DNA from: a virus
DNA length: 24,592 bases
Reading direction: 5' to 3' (one strand)
Virus record (IMG/VR): IMGVR_UViG_3300031857_001313
Span: 1-24,592 of that record
Shown here: piece by piece, positions 2,780 through 24,512 of the stretch
How the letters are laid out: every line of letters starts with the position of its first letter
Numbering within the stretch: the first letter of the stretch is position 1
The notes under the pieces: model-generated
Seen by the model: only the letters and a program-made list of their open reading frames with translations
Database searches by the model: none
Told to the model about the DNA's origin: nothing
Position numbers and translations under genes: made by a program

Positions 2780-2986
2780 ATGGCGACGGGCTACCTTAGC
2801 GCCTTGCAATCATCCCTGCAATCATTGATAAAGGGAGGGAGGGCGAAGCTTCGTGCCAGTCGCTTCAAGCCCTCCCTGTGCCAACGGCTTTCGAGGAGCC
2901 ATCGACCATGCGGATATACCGCTACCAGTTTAATCGCGCAAGCCTCTGGGCGGTGTTGTAATGAGCGCCGACCCGTTCATCATTGA
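2780..2986 (+). CDS. Possible small basic ORF in the leader region
   Basis: A 68-residue frame with an unusually good ribosome site: AGGGGAGGA (2762-2770) nine bases before ATG 2780. The predicted product is Ser/Arg/Leu-rich with five cysteines and no recognisable domain. It overlaps the PAPS-reductase-like gene by 26 bases in another frame. The stretch also contains a tandem repeat (2802-2825) and a strong hairpin (2836-2877) that would fold over this frame, so it may instead be a regulatory leader. The amino-acid make-up is not convincing, and I list it mainly for the ribosome site. Confidence 0.3.
   Translation: MATGYLSALQSSLQSLIKGGRAKLRASRFKPSLCQRLSRSHRPCGYTATSLIAQASGRCCNERRPVHH
2802..2825. 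repeat. Tandem 12-bp direct repeat
   Basis: Two copies of CC[T/C]TGCAATCAT lie head to tail (2802-2813 and 2814-2825) with 11 of 12 bases identical. They sit upstream of the hairpin and of the PAPS-reductase-like gene. The spacing of slightly more than one helical turn suits a protein-binding site, but no known motif is recognised. Confidence 0.5.
2836..2877 (+). promoter_or_regulatory. Strong hairpin in the leader of the PAPS-reductase-like gene
   Basis: AGGGAGGGC (2836-2844) pairs with GCCCTCCCT (2869-2877), and inside it GAAGC (2845-2849) pairs with GCTTC (2862-2866), with a two-base bulge and a 12-base loop. No T-run follows, so it is not an ordinary terminator. The 5' arm is purine-rich and ribosome-site-like, so folding could hide a false start or control translation of the downstream leader peptide and gene. 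Confidence 0.5.
2908..2961 (+). CDS. Possible 17-aa leader peptide coupled to next gene
   Basis: ATG 2908 has GAGGAG nine bases upstream (2893-2898) and opens a 17-codon frame ending TAA at 2959-2961. Its last base is the first base of the downstream ATG (TAATG). The downstream gene has no convincing ribosome site of its own, so translation of this mini-frame could deliver ribosomes to it. The predicted peptide (MRIYRYQFNRASLWAVL) is basic and aromatic. It is too short to judge by composition; the coupling geometry is the only evidence. Confidence 0.35.
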   Translation: MRIYRYQFNRASLWAVL

Positions 2987-3806
2987 CGGCCCGTGCCTTT
3001 GGTCGTTTAGCGGCGGTCGGACTTCGGCCTATATGCTTTGGCGGGCGCTGCAAGCGTATGGCGGAAAACTGCCAGACAATCATGTTGTGGCCTTTGCCAA
3101 CACCGGGAAGGAGCGCGAGGAGACGCTGCGCTTCGTCTATGAGTGCGGGTCGCGCTGGGGCGTTGACGTTGTTTGGCTTGAGTTTGTCGCACGGTCTGGG
3201 CCAAGCGCCGGACGTTACGAGCGCGTTAGCTACAACAGCAGCAGCCGTGATGGCGAGCCATTTGCGCGGCTAGTCAAAGCCAAGTCATACACGCCCAATT
3301 CCGTTATGCGGTTCTGCACCGAGGAAATGAAGGTCAATACGATCAAGCATTTCATCGCTACGGAGCTGGGCTGGACAACCTGGTCTAACGCCGTTGGTCT
3401 TCGCCACGACGAAGGCCACCGCGTGTTGAAGGCGTTGGCGCGAAACTACGAGGGCAAAAGCCCTTGGACGACAAAGGTTCCCCTAGCTAACGCAAACATC
3501 ACGAAGCGTGACGTTGAGGAGTTTTGGAAAGCGCAGCCGTTTGATTTGGGGCTGCGTCCGTACGAAGGGAATTGTGACCTTTGTTTCCTTAAAGGTCGCG
3601 GAACGATCAAGGCGCTAATACGCGAAAAGCCCGGTTCTGCTGATTGGTGGATTGAGCAGGAGCGCGTTGGAAAAGGCTCTTTTAACAAGGACTGGTCTTA
3701 TTCCGACTTGGCGCGAGAGGTTCAGCAGCAGCCGCACCTGTTTGATGATTTGCCGGATGATGAACAAGACGCCGAGTGCGGCCTGTGGTGCGGAGCGGAC
3801 GAATGA
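2961..3806 (+). CDS. PAPS-reductase/ATP-pyrophosphatase-like protein
   Basis: A 281-residue member of the PP-loop family related to PAPS reductase. The nucleotide-binding loop is SFSGGRTSAYM (SGGRTS at 17-22) and is followed by FANTGKEREETL, typical of phage homologues. The cysteines suggest an iron-sulfur site: C119 in MRFCTEEMK, C205/C208 in CDLCFLKGRG, and C273/C277 near the end. Such proteins adenylate or activate a substrate, or handle sulfur; family members work in sulfate assimilation, tRNA thiolation and DNA phosphorothioation (DndC). The substrate cannot be read from sequence. It follows a structured leader and overlaps the replication gene by ATGA at 3803, so it belongs to the replication operon, which hints at nucleic-acid modification over sulfur nutrition. 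Confidence 0.85.
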   Translation: MSADPFIIDGPCLWSFSGGRTSAYMLWRALQAYGGKLPDNHVVAFANTGKEREETLRFVYECGSRWGVDVVWLEFVARSGPSAGRYERVSYNSSSRDGEPFARLVKAKSYTPNSVMRFCTEEMKVNTIKHFIATELGWTTWSNAVGLRHDEGHRVLKALARNYEGKSPWTTKVPLANANITKRDVEEFWKAQPFDLGLRPYEGNCDLCFLKGRGTIKALIREKPGSADWWIEQERVGKGSFNKDWSYSDLAREVQQQPHLFDDLPDDEQDAECGLWCGADE

Positions 3807-15469: not shown

Positions 15470-16540
15470 TTAGAGCTTCCCGTAATCGACCATGAGGAAG
15501 CCCGTCCAGTGACGGACCACCGCATCAATGCCAGCCTTGAGAACGTCCTGCGCCATGACGCCAATGTGACGCTTGCGGCCCCAGACGTAGCGGTATTCGT
15601 AAACCGGCAAACCGTTAGCCATCGTGCCAACGCGCTTGATGTTGCGCTTAAGGCGACGGTCTGATGCGGCAATACCGGCGCGGCCAAGGCCAAACAGCCC
15701 GCTCATAAGCCCTTGCTGCTGTTGCATTCGAGAATTGTAGTTTGCGTTTTGTTGGCCGAGGCTCATTTGGTTAGCCGCCAGAACGTCCGTCTGGCCCACG
15801 CCGGTCGGGCTGTATTGGATGCCTTGGGGCATACCGACTTGGCCCGTGCCTAACAGGGCTTGAAGCTGCTGAAGCGGCTGGTTCTGGACGTAAGCCCGCT
15901 CTTGTAGGCCCTGCGTCCGCGCCTGATTACCGAATGTCCCGCCCGCAATGGCTTGCTGAATAGCACGAGATTGCTCCGCGCCACCGGCTTGGATGGCTTG
16001 GTTGGCTGCCTCTCCGTATGCGTCAGCTCTATCTCTAGCAAAATCAGTTCGTAGGTTTCGCGTTGCCTCGCTATTCGCTCCAAGGCCCTGCGCGGCAAGA
16101 CGTGCATCTTGCGACCTCTCAAGCCGCTGAAACTGCGGGTCAAGCCGACGGGTTTGGCTGGCATAAACCGAATCCTCAAACCGTTGGCGGTCAAAGTCAG
16201 GTGCGTTGTAGCCTTGCAGTTCCGGCAAGCCTTCGGTGTTCAGGCCCTGCCCAAGCGCCGTATTCACGCGGCCAATCTGCTGGCCAGCCGTGTCGAGGGC
16301 GCTACCGTAAACGCCGGTTGAGCGTTCGTAATTCTGCTGCTCAAGCGGGCTAAGTGCCGTTTCTTGACGATAGCCACCAGGTGCGGACGGGTCAGCGATA
16401 TAACGCACGGTCCCTTGGGGGCCGGACGTATTCACCATATTCAACCGCTGCTGTTCACGCGCGGTTGCGGTGTTTGCCGTGCTTTGAGCGTTGGCAAGCT
16501 GGACGGGATCAGGAGCCGCTGGGGGCCGGGGCTTGCTCAC
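15470..16540 (-). CDS. Virion protein with C-terminal S74-like chaperone domain
   Basis: A 356-residue protein. Residues 1-290 are Gln/Ala/Asn-rich and helical, without membrane segments. The final 64 residues match the intramolecular chaperone (peptidase S74) domain: SDRRLKRNIKRVG (S293, K298), GLPVYEYRYVW, HIGVMAQDVL and GFLMVDYGKL. In tail spikes this domain drives trimer folding and then cuts itself off just before the Ser, using the Ser/Lys pair. Here it sits on an otherwise fibre-unlike protein in the ejection-protein cluster. It may be a short fibre, a needle-like protein or an ejection protein that needs the chaperone. It overlaps the GNAT gene by 32 bases. Confidence 0.75.
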   Translation of the reverse strand: MSKPRPPAAPDPVQLANAQSTANTATAREQQRLNMVNTSGPQGTVRYIADPSAPGGYRQETALSPLEQQNYERSTGVYGSALDTAGQQIGRVNTALGQGLNTEGLPELQGYNAPDFDRQRFEDSVYASQTRRLDPQFQRLERSQDARLAAQGLGANSEATRNLRTDFARDRADAYGEAANQAIQAGGAEQSRAIQQAIAGGTFGNQARTQGLQERAYVQNQPLQQLQALLGTGQVGMPQGIQYSPTGVGQTDVLAANQMSLGQQNANYNSRMQQQQGLMSGLFGLGRAGIAASDRRLKRNIKRVGTMANGLPVYEYRYVWGRKRHIGVMAQDVLKAGIDAVVRHWTGFLMVDYGKL

Positions 16541-16976
16541 TTACACGGTCCTTGTTGAAACGGTGAACACGCCACTCGCTTTCGAGGAGACCGGATATGA
16601 TGCAATCATCGTCACCATAACCACGCCGGATAGTCCCCTCATGTTTGAAACCAAACTTTGAGAGAAACTGGCGAGCGGGACGCAAACGCTTTGGCGTCAG
16701 GCTGGTGATTCTCGCCGCCCCTAACTGCTGGAACGGATAACGCAAGATACCTGTGACCAGCGAAGGCGTCAACCAGTTGGACCGACTAGCGGCAAAGCTA
16801 ACCTCAATGTTGCGATATTGGGGCTGATATTGGTTAAAGACGACACCGCCAATGAGATTGTCGTGCTTATCGACCACCCCGATAGCTTCGCACGGTCCCC
16901 AGTCCAGTCCATGCCCAATCTGGTCCGCTACCCATTGAGCGACTAGCGGAGAGAACGGGCCGGAAACTAGCCTCAA
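16509..16976 (-). CDS. GNAT-family N-acetyltransferase
   Basis: A 155-residue protein of normal GNAT size. The core is IGVVDKHDNLIGGVVFNQYQ (beta strands 2-4) with VEVSFAASRSN-type features (as IEVSFAASRSNWLTPS), a helix RYPFQQLGAARITSLT, then the acetyl-CoA-binding/C-terminal part AARQFLSKFGFKHEGT-like (RPARQFLSKFGFKHEG) and RRGYGDDDCIISGLL. It would move an acetyl group to an amine on a protein or small molecule. The start is TTG 16976 in a TTGA overlap with the upstream stop. It lies inside the late virion operon, so its target may be a virion or host protein made late. Confidence 0.8.
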   Translation of the reverse strand: MRLVSGPFSPLVAQWVADQIGHGLDWGPCEAIGVVDKHDNLIGGVVFNQYQPQYRNIEVSFAASRSNWLTPSLVTGILRYPFQQLGAARITSLTPKRLRPARQFLSKFGFKHEGTIRRGYGDDDCIISGLLESEWRVHRFNKDRVSEQAPAPSGS

Positions 16977-18661
16977 AGTTGCCCGCCCGTCTGGTTTTCA
17001 TATTTGAGGTTAAACGCGATAATCTCACACGGCGCGTTGGTGTTTCGTGCCGCTTGCATCGCAATGATGCCGTCTGCCTCATAGGCAAGCGACGTATCGT
17101 CATCGACGCCAAGGTCAATGTAAAGCGTAGCGTTTGGAGCCACGCGCATCCGCACCGCACCGCAGTAGCCAATCCCGGTAACACTTGTCCAGCTATCGCG
17201 CGTTTCAACGCTGTTAGCCCACGTCGCCACGTCCCACAGGCCTGTGTCCCATCGACCGCCCGTCGTCGTAATCGTGGTCGGGACTGCCGTTGGTATCTTC
17301 TCTTTAAAGTCCGTGACAATCTCGACAGCCGGTGCCAGGTCCGCACCAATCCGCAACACGGGCTGAAGCATCTCAAATTTCTTCAGACTGCCGCGCGAGC
17401 CAAAATAGTTAAAAGCCGTCTTGATGTCGCCAACAATGCCGGTCGTGTTGTCCGCATAGCCGGTGTCCCACAGGCAGACCGAATCAGCCGCGCCAAAATA
17501 CATTTGGTCATTGGCCACGGCCCAGCAGAACGCATTGATGCCCGTGAACCGGCACCACGCGCCCGTCTGGACGTTCTGCACATATTGCTCCGACCGGGTC
17601 AGATCAGCAGTCGGGACGTTAAAAATTGCCAGCGTCCCTTTCGGGTAAAGCGTCCCTTCCCATCCGAAGTTGCCGCGATAGCGGGTCGTGGCTTGCTGAA
17701 ATGCGTTCTGGATTTTCTGCGTCAGCGCCACAAGGTTCTCTTGTGCGCGGTCCAGCTTCAGCGCCTGCGAAAGCGGCACGACACCGTTGGTCGTAAGCAC
17801 CACCAGGTCAGAACCATACTTGATGAGCGACCGCCGCGACAACGGTAGACCAATGTCATAGACGCCGACCAATGCCCAGTTGTTTGCATCCGAGGGGTCA
17901 AGGCCCTGATACACCGCCACTTGGCCCTGCGTCGTTACCCAAACCGCCAGATCATCGGCACCCGAACCACCGTCGAGCGTCCATGTCGCTTGACAAAGGA
18001 TCGAGCCGCCCTTGTCAAAAATGGGGCCAAGGTCCAGCAGATTAGCCGCGCCTTGAATGGCAAACGGCTCAAGGAACCAACACCGCAGACTATCTTCTTG
18101 CACAAAGAACAAGCGGCCCTTGTGGTCCATCACGTCAACCAACGTGCGCGGGTCGAGGGTAATCACCCCAGCCGAACCGGTGATGACCGTAGAGGCAAAC
18201 GTAGAGCCGTTGTAATAGATCGGGTCAACAGAGCCGTTAGCCGCAATCATGAACGTTCCAGCGTCGTTGGCGAAGTTAATCCATTGCCAACGGGCATTTC
18301 CGGTCCCGGAAAACACTTCAACCGGCGCGTCGTTCTGGTTGCTCACGTCATAGATCGAGCCGCCAGCCGCTGCAAAAATCTCATCTGGCAAAACAGCCGT
18401 GCCACCACGCCAAACCATCAACGATTCAGTGGGAAGCGGCAGACCCTCTTGCCACGGCACAAACCCTTTACGCAATTCCACATAGCCAGCGCGGGGAATA
18501 AAGTTGTCCAGAATGACCGCGTTTTCGGCAGGCATATTGGCCAGCGGGGATTGTGCATCCCACCCACCAACGGGAGCCGGGACAGCGCGTCCGATAGACA
18601 CCCGCTGTTGAGACACCGCCCGTAAAGGCTGGCGACCGTATCGCTGCGCCGCTTGTCTCAT
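16973..18661 (-). CDS. Tail/DNA-stabilisation-type structural protein
   Basis: A 562-residue, beta-rich protein with few charged helices. Repeated blades are suggested by recurring motifs such as DHKGRLFFVQ, TQGQVAVYQG, GSDLVVLTTNG and AVANDQMYFGAAD, as expected for the beta-propeller-like tail/head-completion proteins (P22 gp10 type) of podoviruses. It lies two genes after the gp4-like adaptor, in the order seen in P22-like phages. ATG 18661 overlaps the stop of the 64-aa gene; a start at 18673 would add four residues. The structural role is well supported by place and form; the exact homologue is not settled. Confidence 0.72.
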   Translation of the reverse strand: MRQAAQRYGRQPLRAVSQQRVSIGRAVPAPVGGWDAQSPLANMPAENAVILDNFIPRAGYVELRKGFVPWQEGLPLPTESLMVWRGGTAVLPDEIFAAAGGSIYDVSNQNDAPVEVFSGTGNARWQWINFANDAGTFMIAANGSVDPIYYNGSTFASTVITGSAGVITLDPRTLVDVMDHKGRLFFVQEDSLRCWFLEPFAIQGAANLLDLGPIFDKGGSILCQATWTLDGGSGADDLAVWVTTQGQVAVYQGLDPSDANNWALVGVYDIGLPLSRRSLIKYGSDLVVLTTNGVVPLSQALKLDRAQENLVALTQKIQNAFQQATTRYRGNFGWEGTLYPKGTLAIFNVPTADLTRSEQYVQNVQTGAWCRFTGINAFCWAVANDQMYFGAADSVCLWDTGYADNTTGIVGDIKTAFNYFGSRGSLKKFEMLQPVLRIGADLAPAVEIVTDFKEKIPTAVPTTITTTGGRWDTGLWDVATWANSVETRDSWTSVTGIGYCGAVRMRVAPNATLYIDLGVDDDTSLAYEADGIIAMQAARNTNAPCEIIAFNLKYENQTGGQL

Positions 18662-18852
18662 ATCGCCACCCATGCCCCGGAACGGTTCTGATAGCCTTGT
18701 GCGCCGATATAGAACAACCGACCGTCTGGGCTATCCGCAGCGGCTGGCAGGGCTGAACCATAGCCGGGCGCATACACCGACAGCAGCGAGTTAATCTTCT
18801 TGCGCTGCGTCTCTTGGTTTTTGGTGTCAGAAATGGTGACGAACAGGATCAT
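18658..18852 (-). CDS. Small conserved-context protein of the head-tail module
   Basis: A 64-residue protein between the adaptor and the stabilisation-type protein, overlapping both by ATGA. It begins with a short hydrophobic strand (MILFVTISD), then a helix (KNQETQRKKINSLLSVY) and ends with a beta-like SPDGRLFYIGAQGYQNRS segment. No family is recognised. Coupling on both sides supports it as real. Confidence 0.55.
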   Translation of the reverse strand: MILFVTISDTKNQETQRKKINSLLSVYAPGYGSALPAAADSPDGRLFYIGAQGYQNRSGAWVAI

Positions 18853-20952: not shown

Positions 20953-21531
20953 CTATGTCCTCCGATACACAGTGTCATTTCCAATCCGCATCACGCTAGA
21001 ATAGCCGGGCAGATCGGCTTTTGGGCCTAGTCCCTTTTCTTCGAGGACTATGATAGGCGAAAACTTCTCGATTGTCGCTAGTGCGCCTTTAATGGCGTCC
21101 GCCTCCGCACCTTCGATGTCCAGCCAGATCAAATCGCACTGATCGAGGCTCAGGCTATCTATCGTTTGAACTGGGATAGCCGTTCCCGGCAGCGTCTTGT
21201 GTGAGCCGCAGTTGTCCGTGTCGATGCGCTGAACAGCACACCAGCCAGGTTCCGCCCCAAGCGCACCAAAATACACAAGGGCTTCGTCATATGTGACGTT
21301 CTTATGCAGGCATTCGAAATTGTCTTCATCCGGCTCAAACGTGATGACCTGACCAAACACCTTTGACAGCGCGAGCGGATACACCCCGACATTGCCACCA
21401 GCCTGAACACATACCCGCTTTTCAGCCACCAACGGCAGAACAAGGGGCATAGCAGCGGCGCATTCGTGTATGACCACCGCACGACACCGCACGTCAAAAT
21501 CGGGCCACCAGAGACCGTCAATCTGTTTCAT
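20953..21531 (-). CDS. FkbM-family methyltransferase
   Basis: A 192-residue SAM-dependent methyltransferase. Motif I is CVQAGGNVGVYPLALSKVF (residues 41-59), followed by the acidic ribose contact TFEPDEDNFE (E66), and the family ending VQTIDSLSLDQCDLIWLDIE with GAEADAIKGA (D138, E140). FkbM enzymes O-methylate sugars and related hydroxyls. In this operon it directly follows a 59-aa gene and the glycosyltransferase-DUF115 gene, so methylation of a sugar added by that enzyme is the natural reading. It starts in an ATGA overlap with the 59-aa gene. Confidence 0.85.
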   Translation of the reverse strand: MKQIDGLWWPDFDVRCRAVVIHECAAAMPLVLPLVAEKRVCVQAGGNVGVYPLALSKVFGQVITFEPDEDNFECLHKNVTYDEALVYFGALGAEPGWCAVQRIDTDNCGSHKTLPGTAIPVQTIDSLSLDQCDLIWLDIEGAEADAIKGALATIEKFSPIIVLEEKGLGPKADLPGYSSVMRIGNDTVYRRT

Positions 21532-21707
21532 TTTGCCAAGCCTTTTTCGTCATACAGGTGCCGTTGAGCGTCAACCGGATGGTAGAAATCCGGCTCATCT
21601 AGCAGCAACAGCGCCCGGTCAGCGTCCGTCAGCCGCTCCGGATACCATTTCAGCGTTGCCCACGCCTTGCGCCGCTCGTTGTCGTTCCGCTCATGGTATT
21701 GTTTCAC
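21528..21707 (-). CDS. Small charged protein between glycosyltransferase and FkbM genes
   Basis: A 59-residue frame with GTG start (21707-21705) in a GTGA overlap with the glycosyltransferase gene's stop, and TGA at 21530-21528 in an ATGA overlap with the FkbM start. The protein is rich in Arg, Asp, Glu and Leu (YHERNDNERRKAWATLKWY, then ERLTDADRALLLLDEPDFY) and is likely a helical bundle without membrane segments. It fills the space between two coupled genes exactly, which strongly suggests it is translated. The function is unknown; a small partner of the modification enzymes is possible. Confidence 0.7.
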   Translation of the reverse strand: MKQYHERNDNERRKAWATLKWYPERLTDADRALLLLDEPDFYHPVDAQRHLYDEKGLAK

Positions 21708-23137
21708 GCCAGCAATCTCGCCATGTCCGGCACGAGCCCGCGCCCGTGCGCAATGACCTTTACGCCACGGTCACGCAGATACAAAAATTGCTGCTGAAAC
21801 TCCATCGCCTGCCTGATCATCCAGCGGGCGCAAGTGTATGTTTTGTCACCCAGCACAACGTCCATTGTCGCTTCACCGTCATTCAAGCTTTGCGAATAGG
21901 CATGATGCGAACCCTCGGCATACGAACTGTCGAAACCATAAAGGTGTATTTTCTTATACCCCGACAGCCACGCCAGATTGATAGCGCGAAGCCCGACAGT
22001 GCCTCCACCGGGCACTAGAACGCACGGCTTCTGGTCTGGGCCTTCGTCAAACCACGGCTTGATGATGTCCATAAGTTCCTCACCAGAACCCATCGCATTG
22101 TGCCACAAAACAACATCATGCCCCGAAAGCGCATCAAACACGCACGGATGAACCTGCGAGGCGAGGAAGTAGCGCACGGACATTGGCGCATCCTCGACCA
22201 TGTGCAGATTTTCTTCCCGCGCATCCAGCATGACGTGACCGTCTGGCGTTAGGCCGTGCTTGATCAGATACCGCATTGCATTATTGACGCTGATAATCTT
22301 GGCGCCGCGTCTGCGATGGTCCTTGATGGCCTGCACACTGTCCGCAAGCGAGGGACCGCCACCGACAATGACGCAAGCCTTGTCTTGGTCCCCAAAGCCG
22401 GAAAACCACGCTAAGTCCCGCTGCACGTTTGCCCGCACGTTAGCATAGGCAAAGTCGTGCGTTACGTTCATGCCCCTCAGTTCTGGCATGGCCGTGTAGC
22501 CACCGACGCGCCACACACCTGGCACCCACCCCTCGGTCACTTCATGCGGCTTGGGCTGTCCGTGAAAGATGACTGCCTTAGCTGTCTCAGGCGGCCATGA
22601 TACCGCATTCCGGTATGACACGAACATATCAGCGGGGAACGTGTCCCATGTGCTGATTTGCGTGATCCATTCTTGGTCCCCGCCATTCACTTGGCCCTCA
22701 GGCAGCAAGCCTTGCAAGGTGTCAGACAGCAGGTCGATAAACTCAGGCTCAAACCACGTCCAAATGTCGGAATGGTCGCCATACTGCCAGCGCATGACGC
22801 TGCTGTTATAGGTCGGCCAGTGCCAGTCCTGAATGATGCCGTGCGGCAGTTCCTCAAGCCTGCCAGTCACGCATACGTCAAGGTCCATATACAGAACCTC
22901 GTCGCCTAACTCCCACGGCATATCTTCTTCGCAGAACAGATAGACCTTTTGCCACCAGCCCGGCAGATCGGGATTGTGCGCGATAGCCGTAATGCCTTCT
23001 GGCAGTTCGTCCGGTCTGTCGGTCAAGCACCAATGGCGCTGTTCTTCGCCCAAATGCCGGGCAATGCCGTCATGCAGTTTGGTGACGTACTCAATCCCGT
23101 ACTTGGTTCCGACGCGGACGCTGACGACGTTAATCAT
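21704..23137 (-). CDS. Glycosyltransferase-DUF115/MAF-like fusion protein
   Basis: A 477-residue two-domain protein. Residues 1-245 look like a GT-A fold glycosyltransferase: VLYMDLDVCVTG has the DxD metal/sugar-nucleotide motif (D85, D87), followed by NGGDQEWIT (D154) and IFHGQPKPHE. Residues about 252-430 match the DUF115/MAF domain: ACVIVGGGPSLADSVQ, IISVNNAMRYLIKHGLTPDG, VMLDAREE and IHLYGFDSSYAEGSHH. MAF proteins are linked to adding nonulosonic acids to flagellin. One protein may thus pair two sugar steps. It lies just after the capsid genes behind tandem hairpins and before the FkbM gene, so the target may be a virion protein; this is inference. The ribosome site is GGAGG four bases before the ATG. 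Confidence 0.8.
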   Translation of the reverse strand: MINVVSVRVGTKYGIEYVTKLHDGIARHLGEEQRHWCLTDRPDELPEGITAIAHNPDLPGWWQKVYLFCEEDMPWELGDEVLYMDLDVCVTGRLEELPHGIIQDWHWPTYNSSVMRWQYGDHSDIWTWFEPEFIDLLSDTLQGLLPEGQVNGGDQEWITQISTWDTFPADMFVSYRNAVSWPPETAKAVIFHGQPKPHEVTEGWVPGVWRVGGYTAMPELRGMNVTHDFAYANVRANVQRDLAWFSGFGDQDKACVIVGGGPSLADSVQAIKDHRRRGAKIISVNNAMRYLIKHGLTPDGHVMLDAREENLHMVEDAPMSVRYFLASQVHPCVFDALSGHDVVLWHNAMGSGEELMDIIKPWFDEGPDQKPCVLVPGGGTVGLRAINLAWLSGYKKIHLYGFDSSYAEGSHHAYSQSLNDGEATMDVVLGDKTYTCARWMIRQAMEFQQQFLYLRDRGVKVIAHGRGLVPDMARLLA

Positions 23138-23150
23138 GCTACCTCCATAG

Positions 23151-23184
23151 CAAAATGGCCCCGAGGACGAACCCCGAGGCCATT
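23151..23184 (-). terminator. Terminator-like hairpin after the capsid genes
   Basis: On the leftward transcript the stem AATGGCC/GGCCATT, extended inward by CCTCGGGG-type pairs with two mismatches around a five-base loop, is followed by TTTTGC. The short T-run suggests partial termination, letting capsid messages outnumber those of the modification genes downstream. Confidence 0.55.
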
Positions 23185-23228: not shown

Positions 23229-23516
23229 TTAGATAGCGGTGCGCTTGGCCCAGAAATATTGGCCAGCGGCGACACCGCCCGTGGTGTTGACCGTGAAGCC
23301 AGCCGAACCGGAATCCGACGACGCAGAGCCGTTGGTGCCGATCAGGATGGTTTGCGTCGAAGACAGGGCTTCCGACGCGCGAGCGTAGAGGTGCATCCGC
23401 GCGTCGTTAGCGCGAATGGTCAGGTTGACGGCAAAAGCAGGGGTCGAGGACTTGTCGTCCAGATCAATCCCCACAGTCGGAGTGGTCGAAAAGACCGTAG
23501 CAGCAGTCGATGCCAT
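23229..23516 (-). CDS. Small head protein, possible decoration protein
   Basis: A 95-residue Ser/Thr/Ala-rich, beta-type protein with no membrane segment or catalytic motif (VGIDLDDKSSTPAF, then NLTIRANDARMHLYARASEA and a C-terminal FTVNTTGGVAAGQYFWAK). It lies 24 bases after the major capsid gene and has a very strong ribosome site (AGAAAGGAG, eight bases upstream), so high expression is expected. Place, size and expression suit a head decoration or minor capsid protein. Its many Ser/Thr residues would also offer sites for O-glycosylation by the neighbouring enzyme. Confidence 0.65.
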   Translation of the reverse strand: MASTAATVFSTTPTVGIDLDDKSSTPAFAVNLTIRANDARMHLYARASEALSSTQTILIGTNGSASSDSGSAGFTVNTTGGVAAGQYFWAKRTAI

Positions 23517-23540: not shown

Positions 23541-24512
23541 TCAGGTTTGGAACAGGACGCCTTGGAGGAAGGCGTTCGACAGGGTCAGGTTGCCAGCCCA
23601 AACGATAGGCTTGACCATAGCGTCCTGGTTGATCGAACGAACTTCTTCCAGCGGAACCATGTTGCGGTCCTTGTGAGGGCGCCAGTGGATGTAGCCGGTG
23701 TTCAGCATATACATGTGATTGGCCGGGCAAGCCCCGCCGAAACCACCGTCAAACACCACATCCGTCCCCTTATACTTCAGCGACACATAACCGGCGTCGC
23801 CTTCGTTGGGGTTGCTGATGCGCTGGATGTCCTGAAGCGCCGACTCATAGAATGCGAAATAGTTGTCATCGCACAGAATGAGGTCCGGCTTGTCAGTGCC
23901 GCGCGAGCATTGACGATACAGGTTGTTCATGAAGCGAATGATGTTGGCAGCCGAGGCAGCCGAACCGCCGTCCGAAGTGGCTTGGAACTTCTGGTTTTGC
24001 CAGAACGACCACGTTGCACGGTTGATGCCGCCGACAGTGCCGGTGGTGGGGTCGTCAGCCACGAGGAGCTGAAGGCCACCAATCTGCTTGCCGCCCGAAG
24101 CCGTGCCGTTCGAGTAGAGGTCTTCGGCCACACCGTTCTGCATGGTCTTTTCCGCGTTCTTGATACGCGAGGCCAGCAGGTCAATGATGGCGTCAACGCC
24201 GGAGTTTTGCAGTTGCTCCAAACCGCTCATGGTCACGTTGACGGCGATTTGCTTCCAGTCAAACTCAGCCGAGGTGAACACGTCGCTGGGCGAGATGTTC
24301 AGGACTTCGTAGCCCGAGTAGCGCTGATAAGTGACGTTCTCAGCGTATTCGAGTTCCTGGATGATGGTGCGGCCACCGGACACCGGCTTGATGGTGCCAC
24401 GACGCTGCATACGCGACAGAATCGCGTTGTTTTGCGTCACGTTGTCGGCCAGCTTACCCGTGCGATTACGCAGGGTCGTGGTTGCGATTTCCGAAAGATT
24501 CGGGGAGGTCAT
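23541..24512 (-). CDS. Major capsid protein
   Basis: A 323-residue protein of the phage major capsid type (HK97 fold expected). An N-terminal arm (ATTTLRNRTGKLADNVTQN) is followed by QELEYAENVTYQRYSGYE, VFTSAEFDWKQIAVNVTMSG, an alpha-helical backbone segment (VDAIIDLLASRIKNAEKTM), and late conserved parts LILCDDNYFAFYESAL, YKGTDVVFDG, ANHMYMLNTGYI and the end NLTLSNAFLQGVLFQ. It builds the icosahedral head. The ribosome site TAGGAG overlaps the stop of the gene before, seven bases from ATG. The small head protein follows. The match in pattern, size and place makes the call strong. Confidence 0.88.
   Translation of the reverse strand: MTSPNLSEIATTTLRNRTGKLADNVTQNNAILSRMQRRGTIKPVSGGRTIIQELEYAENVTYQRYSGYEVLNISPSDVFTSAEFDWKQIAVNVTMSGLEQLQNSGVDAIIDLLASRIKNAEKTMQNGVAEDLYSNGTASGGKQIGGLQLLVADDPTTGTVGGINRATWSFWQNQKFQATSDGGSAASAANIIRFMNNLYRQCSRGTDKPDLILCDDNYFAFYESALQDIQRISNPNEGDAGYVSLKYKGTDVVFDGGFGGACPANHMYMLNTGYIHWRPHKDRNMVPLEEVRSINQDAMVKPIVWAGNLTLSNAFLQGVLFQT

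Follow-up and report, generated by a model that had tools for sequence, protein, structure and literature searches.

The stretch of viral DNA analysed here (the window: IMG/VR record IMGVR_UViG_3300031857_001313, positions 1 to 24,592, 24,592 nucleotides in all) carries a predicted two-domain glycosyltransferase gene on the minus strand, between the genes for the head shell and a gene for a putative sugar methyltransferase. In the order in which they would be transcribed, the features of this region are:

23541..24512, minus strand: major capsid protein, candidate acceptor (phrog_9953, E 2.3e-118)
23229..23516, minus strand: small decoration-type head protein, candidate acceptor (directly after the capsid gene, in the position of Mx8 p49)
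23157..23183, minus strand: conserved RNA hairpin followed by TTTT, probable attenuator or terminator (fold z-score, covariation)
21704..23137, minus strand: predicted GT8-DUF115 (glycogenin-like plus Maf-like) bifunctional glycosyltransferase, 477 aa (Pfam, PHROG, profiles, structure model, dN/dS)
22496..23137, minus strand: its N-terminal GT-A domain of GT8 type, residues 1-214 (PHROG 1962, glycogenin profile, LgtC and glycogenin Z about 16, motif conservation)
21707..22462, minus strand: its C-terminal DUF115/Maf_flag10 domain, residues 226-477 (PF01973, Maf 5mu5 by profile and structural Z)
21528..21707, minus strand: 59-aa ORF (GTG start overlapping the glycosyltransferase stop; own stop overlapping the FkbM start)
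20953..21531, minus strand: FkbM-family SAM methyltransferase, proposed glycan O-methyltransferase (PF05050, TIGR01444, fusion in contig L242)

The glycosyltransferase reading frame opens with an ATG a few bases downstream of GGAGGT and continues without a frameshift. A Pfam search of the 477-aa protein returned a single family, PF01973 (DUF115/MptE-like, the Maf domain), at residues 233-408 with E 1.2e-25 and 90.7 bits, above the curated cut-off of 34.6, and residues 6-210 matched the PHROG 1962 glycosyltransferases (E 5e-18). Sequence profiles matched Maf (5mu5, E 4.5e-9), glycogenin (E 0.002) and MptE (E 0.0028); matches to AI-designed TIM barrels in a PDB sequence search were set aside, as no single stretch passed alone. 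The motifs DLD, VGGGPSL and YGFDSSY lie at residues 85-87, 258-264 and 400-406. The N-terminal half combines a GT-A fold with the DxD, GDQ and HGxxKP motifs of GT8 enzymes (D85xD87, N151GGDQ155 and H192G..K196P), and in the glycogenin alignment its DLD coincides with the metal-binding DxD, NGGDQ with (D/N)GGDQ and HGQPKP with HFLGQxKP. Across 36 aligned GT8 rows, D85, D154 and G193 do not vary and D87, Q155, H192 and K196 hardly vary; DxS replaces DxD in some relatives (L151, L159, L222). In the DUF115 half, P262, S263, N285, D305, D403, H412, Q416, N419, W439 and Q443 are invariant in 58 rows. Both active sites therefore look intact, and the protein, as read from its sequence, is a chain of two glycosyltransferase-type domains with presumed catalytic activity.

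A structure model supports this division. The final model, from an alignment of 59 rows that was deeper than the first, has a mean pLDDT of 89.1 and a pTM of 0.63; it replaced one built from an alignment of close relatives only, which had a poor C-terminal half (mean pLDDT 58.5). In structural alignments, residues 1-214 matched LgtC (Z 16.1), glycogenin (16.0) and GlyE (16.0), all of GT8 type, and residues 226-477 matched the central-domain fold of Maf from Magnetospirillum (5mu5) with Z 21.4 and an rmsd of 3.0 over 224 residues. Motifs, profiles and structure thus agree with the original prediction of a GT-A domain with DLD and a MAF-like domain (VGGGPSL, YGFDSSY) on one chain, which stands on structural grounds because the model shows both a Maf-like and a GT8-like domain.

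PF01973 also includes MptE, a pterin diphosphokinase, and phage homologues of the protein carry the MptE name in database entries. The C-terminal half might accordingly be an MptE-type pterin or nucleotide kinase rather than a glycosyltransferase, with the fusion serving cofactor metabolism, and MptE of M. jannaschii (8sd5) does match residues 226-477 with Z 15.9. We regard this as highly improbable: among PF01973 proteins Maf is clearly closer than MptE by both profile (4.5e-9 against 2.8e-3) and structure, fusions with GT8 and methyltransferase domains recur (see below), and pterin genes were not seen. Proteins of uncultured phages entered as MptE-like, with predicted structures, are relatives; the name 'MptE-like pterin kinase' is probably misleading for them.

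The 92-nt intergenic stretch between the decoration gene and the glycosyltransferase has a fold z-score of −6.0, and the 11-bp stem of its hairpin is 100% paired in 16 distinct relatives, with compensatory changes at 8 of the 11 pairs (0 of 500 shuffles). The hairpin may act as an attenuator that lowers expression of the enzyme relative to the capsid protein. Downstream, the stop codon of the 59-aa ORF overlaps the ATG of the FkbM gene, which itself abuts p50; by their overlapping ends, the glycosyltransferase, the 59-aa ORF and FkbM form what reads as a translationally coupled set. HNH endonuclease genes occur at varying spots around this cassette in relatives (L006, L016, L034, L043 and others), including between the glycosyltransferase and FkbM. 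The FkbM assignment rests on scores above both family cut-offs, PF05050 (E 3e-11, 44.1 bits, cut-off 22.7) and TIGR01444 (63.5 bits, cut-off 37.7). FkbM-type enzymes (TIGR01444/PF05050) methylate small molecules and sugars, which argues against the proteins making a glycosylated or methylated DNA base that would protect the genome. Such hypermodification is very unlikely here: the window and the parts of the related genome G001 looked at yielded no hydroxymethylase or base-synthesis gene, and the glycosyltransferase gene lies in the structural module, away from the replication genes, even though G001 has a DNA methylase gene and DNA-hypermodifying phage glycosyltransferases are known (cited in PMC12619734).

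Other genes in the window were also considered. A GNAT-type acetyltransferase gene (16509-16976, minus strand) lies between virion genes; its candidacy as a member of the glycan cassette was rejected, as related phages have it whether or not they carry DUF115 (for instance ppBjS10J-1 and MW202489, which do not), and it belongs to the backbone. The adjoining virion-module protein (16973-18673, minus strand) matches PHROG 5107, labelled amidase, a label that looks doubtful; its MW202489 homologue is annotated as a phage stabilization protein. Among the early genes, 2961-3806 (plus strand) encodes a PAPS-reductase-like protein with a weak Pfam match.

A first search of genome contigs with the full-length alignment gave no matches, and a search of viral contigs with the DUF115 domain yielded 308 relatives, of which 80 were kept. 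A capsid gene lies upstream on the same strand in all 107 DUF115 loci that include one (within 1.5 kb in 105), and p50 lies downstream in 135 of 141 distinct DUF115 ORFs, so that the usual slot is after the decoration gene and before p50. Many divergent phages thus keep the placement in a late structural operon next to capsid genes that was originally described. Some 50 IMG/VR loci have an intact copy of the fused gene, 69-98% identical. When loci were anchored on the capsid protein, those of at least 68% capsid identity that are long enough carried it, and it is absent from L109 (67% capsid identity), the more distant loci listed, Mx8, ppBjS10J-1 and MW202489. Many phages with related capsids do without the enzyme, which is patchy across the Mx8-like lineage; it is therefore not needed for assembly in general. 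One DUF115 domain per contig was found in 12 of 12 relatives. Elsewhere, in a Rhodospirillaceae MAG, a phage-like contig (L241, 2571-4680) has two DUF115-like genes flanking a tail-completion gp17 gene, and Maf-like enzymes may therefore also occur beside tail genes.

Within the slot, DUF115 appears alone, as GT8-DUF115 (the type in the window), in the reversed order DUF115-GT8 (L159, L160, L222), fused to methyltransferases of Methyltransf_23/25 type (mostly below Pfam cut-offs, also matching PHROG 24759), and as a triple fusion GT8-DUF115-Methyltransf_24 (L151, L152); some apparent cases of DUF115 alone, such as L055, are cut short where the contig ends or the frame breaks. In one further contig (L153, 591-2297) the domain is fused to an N-terminal region of about 300 residues without a Pfam or PHROG match. 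The tree of DUF115 domains requires 12 architecture changes (minimum 5), a count inflated by the cut cases and drawn on a tree in which some long branches are unsure. These varied fusions in a single slot identify DUF115 as the constant core and GT8 and the methyltransferases as interchangeable add-ons. GT8, DUF115 and FkbM form one 702-aa chain in L242, a contig from this phage type that was binned with a Rhodopila MAG; the two genes of the window are joined there in the same order. Since fusion of proteins that are separate elsewhere is good evidence of joint function, GT8-DUF115 and FkbM probably act together. The FkbM partner, the shuffling of domains and this single chain had no place in the original prediction.

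The patchy distribution, together with the HNH endonuclease genes that separate the glycosyltransferase from FkbM in some relatives, could also mean that this is a mobile or moron gene without a set function, near the capsid genes by shared ancestry only. That seems quite unlikely, given dN/dS values of about 0.05-0.14 in both domains, which point to purifying selection on each half, and given that this set of domains has been rebuilt repeatedly at one position.

The late-operon position alone does not name the acceptor, but the fixed place beside capsid genes across many divergent phages favours a virion protein. The original prediction had drawn attention to Ser/Thr-rich head proteins as candidates for sugar coating. 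The decoration-type protein does contain 27% Ser+Thr, and the Mx8 gene in its place is annotated as a major virion structural protein; such richness is not specific to enzyme-bearing phages, however, since the Ser+Thr content of the gene that follows the capsid gene is no higher in DUF115 phages from outside the window's group than in phages without DUF115. The case for coating virion proteins thus keeps the support of gene position and loses that of composition. The decoration gene also lost some of its claim to be special to the DUF115 group, as Mx8-type phages that lack DUF115 have such a gene directly after the capsid gene. Host flagellin, the other target once proposed, found no evidence in its favour, and the N- and C-terminal domains proper to Maf are absent.

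Host surface glycans (LPS, capsule or flagellin) might instead be modified late in infection, for example preventing re-adsorption of progeny to debris or infected cells. GT8 members like LgtC, which is among the best structural matches, act on lipooligosaccharide, and PHROG 1962, matched by the N-terminal half, is filed under moron/host takeover. We nonetheless think this unlikely: a flippase- or GtrA-like partner and an integrase were not seen in the window or the G001 parts, the slot between the decoration and p50 genes is fixed in divergent phages, unlike that of free-floating morons, and Maf-type enzymes work in the cytoplasm, on proteins.

Ser/Thr residues of flagellin are O-glycosylated by Maf, whose central PF01973 domain is similar to the sialyltransferase Cst-II (PMC11339370); Maf is reported to act before chaperone binding and export (PMC4065374). 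By analogy with Maf on flagellin, a virion protein from the same operon would be O-glycosylated directly. The data presented above have led us to propose a model, which we hold to be on balance probable, in which a virion protein is glycosylated and then methylated late in infection in the cytosol, the activity, donors, order of steps and virion acceptor all being deduced from the genes. The enzyme would be a late-expressed, probably soluble, two-headed glycosyltransferase whose Maf-like DUF115 domain most likely transfers the first sugar, in the cytoplasm, directly onto Ser/Thr of the decoration protein or the major capsid protein; DUF115 is the likeliest to act first because it is constant and able to stand alone. 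A UDP-sugar would next supply a hexose, added by the GT8 domain, and O-methylation of the glycan would fall to the coupled FkbM enzyme; that methyltransferases from three Pfam families have joined the DUF115 core argues for a methylated product. The sugar donors would probably come from the host, since nucleotide-sugar synthesis genes were found neither in the window nor in the further parts of G001 looked at; the system is to that extent not 'self-contained', as had been suggested. More tentatively, and with some doubt, Mx8-like phages may possess a modular single-slot line in which a Maf-type enzyme acts on the capsid or decoration protein, GT8 extends the glycan and methyltransferases of the three families cap it, so that each phage would have a methylated capsid glycan of its own.

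Maf enzymes are known to target flagellin, and few cases of glycans on phage virions are known. The present genes suggest that a phage group known mostly from environmental DNA may sugar-coat its own shells with a DUF115 enzyme and a methylating partner. To our knowledge, Maf-type protein glycosylation would here be seen for the first time outside flagella, and for the first time with a virus shell as its target. A DUF115 domain fixed beside capsid genes and rebuilt with varied partners suggests selection for variable virion sugar coats, and the locus offers compact protein glycosyltransferases with the likely substrate encoded next door.

Maf, GT8 and FkbM enzymes and phage virion glycosylation are each already known; the literature searched contained no instance of Maf-like, GT8 and FkbM enzymes united in a single slot next to capsid genes, nor any text on PF01973/DUF115 enzymes in phages. 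The phage protein shares with the Maf flagellin glycosyltransferases (5mu5) the central DUF115 fold and the GPS and GxD...H motifs. Maf has in addition an N-terminal Rossmann-like and a C-terminal helical domain, whereas in the phage protein GT8 takes the N-terminal place and the chain ends with DUF115; NCBIfam PseD gives it 17.5 bits against a cut-off of 670. Maf genes lie with flagellar or nonulosonic-acid genes, and the phage gene lies in a capsid operon with head and tail genes as neighbours. Residues 1-214 share the GT-A fold and motifs described above with glycogenin, LgtC and GlyE, but unlike these are fused to DUF115. P1 PmgQ, P7 HdmD and the PHROG 1962 glycosyltransferases are related to the N-terminal GT8 at roughly 22-30% identity and match that half only, a DUF115 relative not being found in these records. 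A tblastn search with the DUF115 half, which would miss very distant relatives, found none in 50,697 phage or 72,556 plasmid records, so that cultured relatives could not be used for comparison. According to two papers on mycobacteriophages (PMC12619734, PMC11256854), virion glycosylation is known in these phages, Che8 and Rita encode glycosyltransferases whose presumed substrates are capsid and tail-tube proteins, and the Maravista glycosyltransferase genes sit close to the genome's 3' end (PMC11256854), unlike here. The putative system described here differs from that of Che8 and Rita in that its core is Maf-like, is accompanied by GT8 and methyltransferase domains, and adjoins the capsid genes directly.
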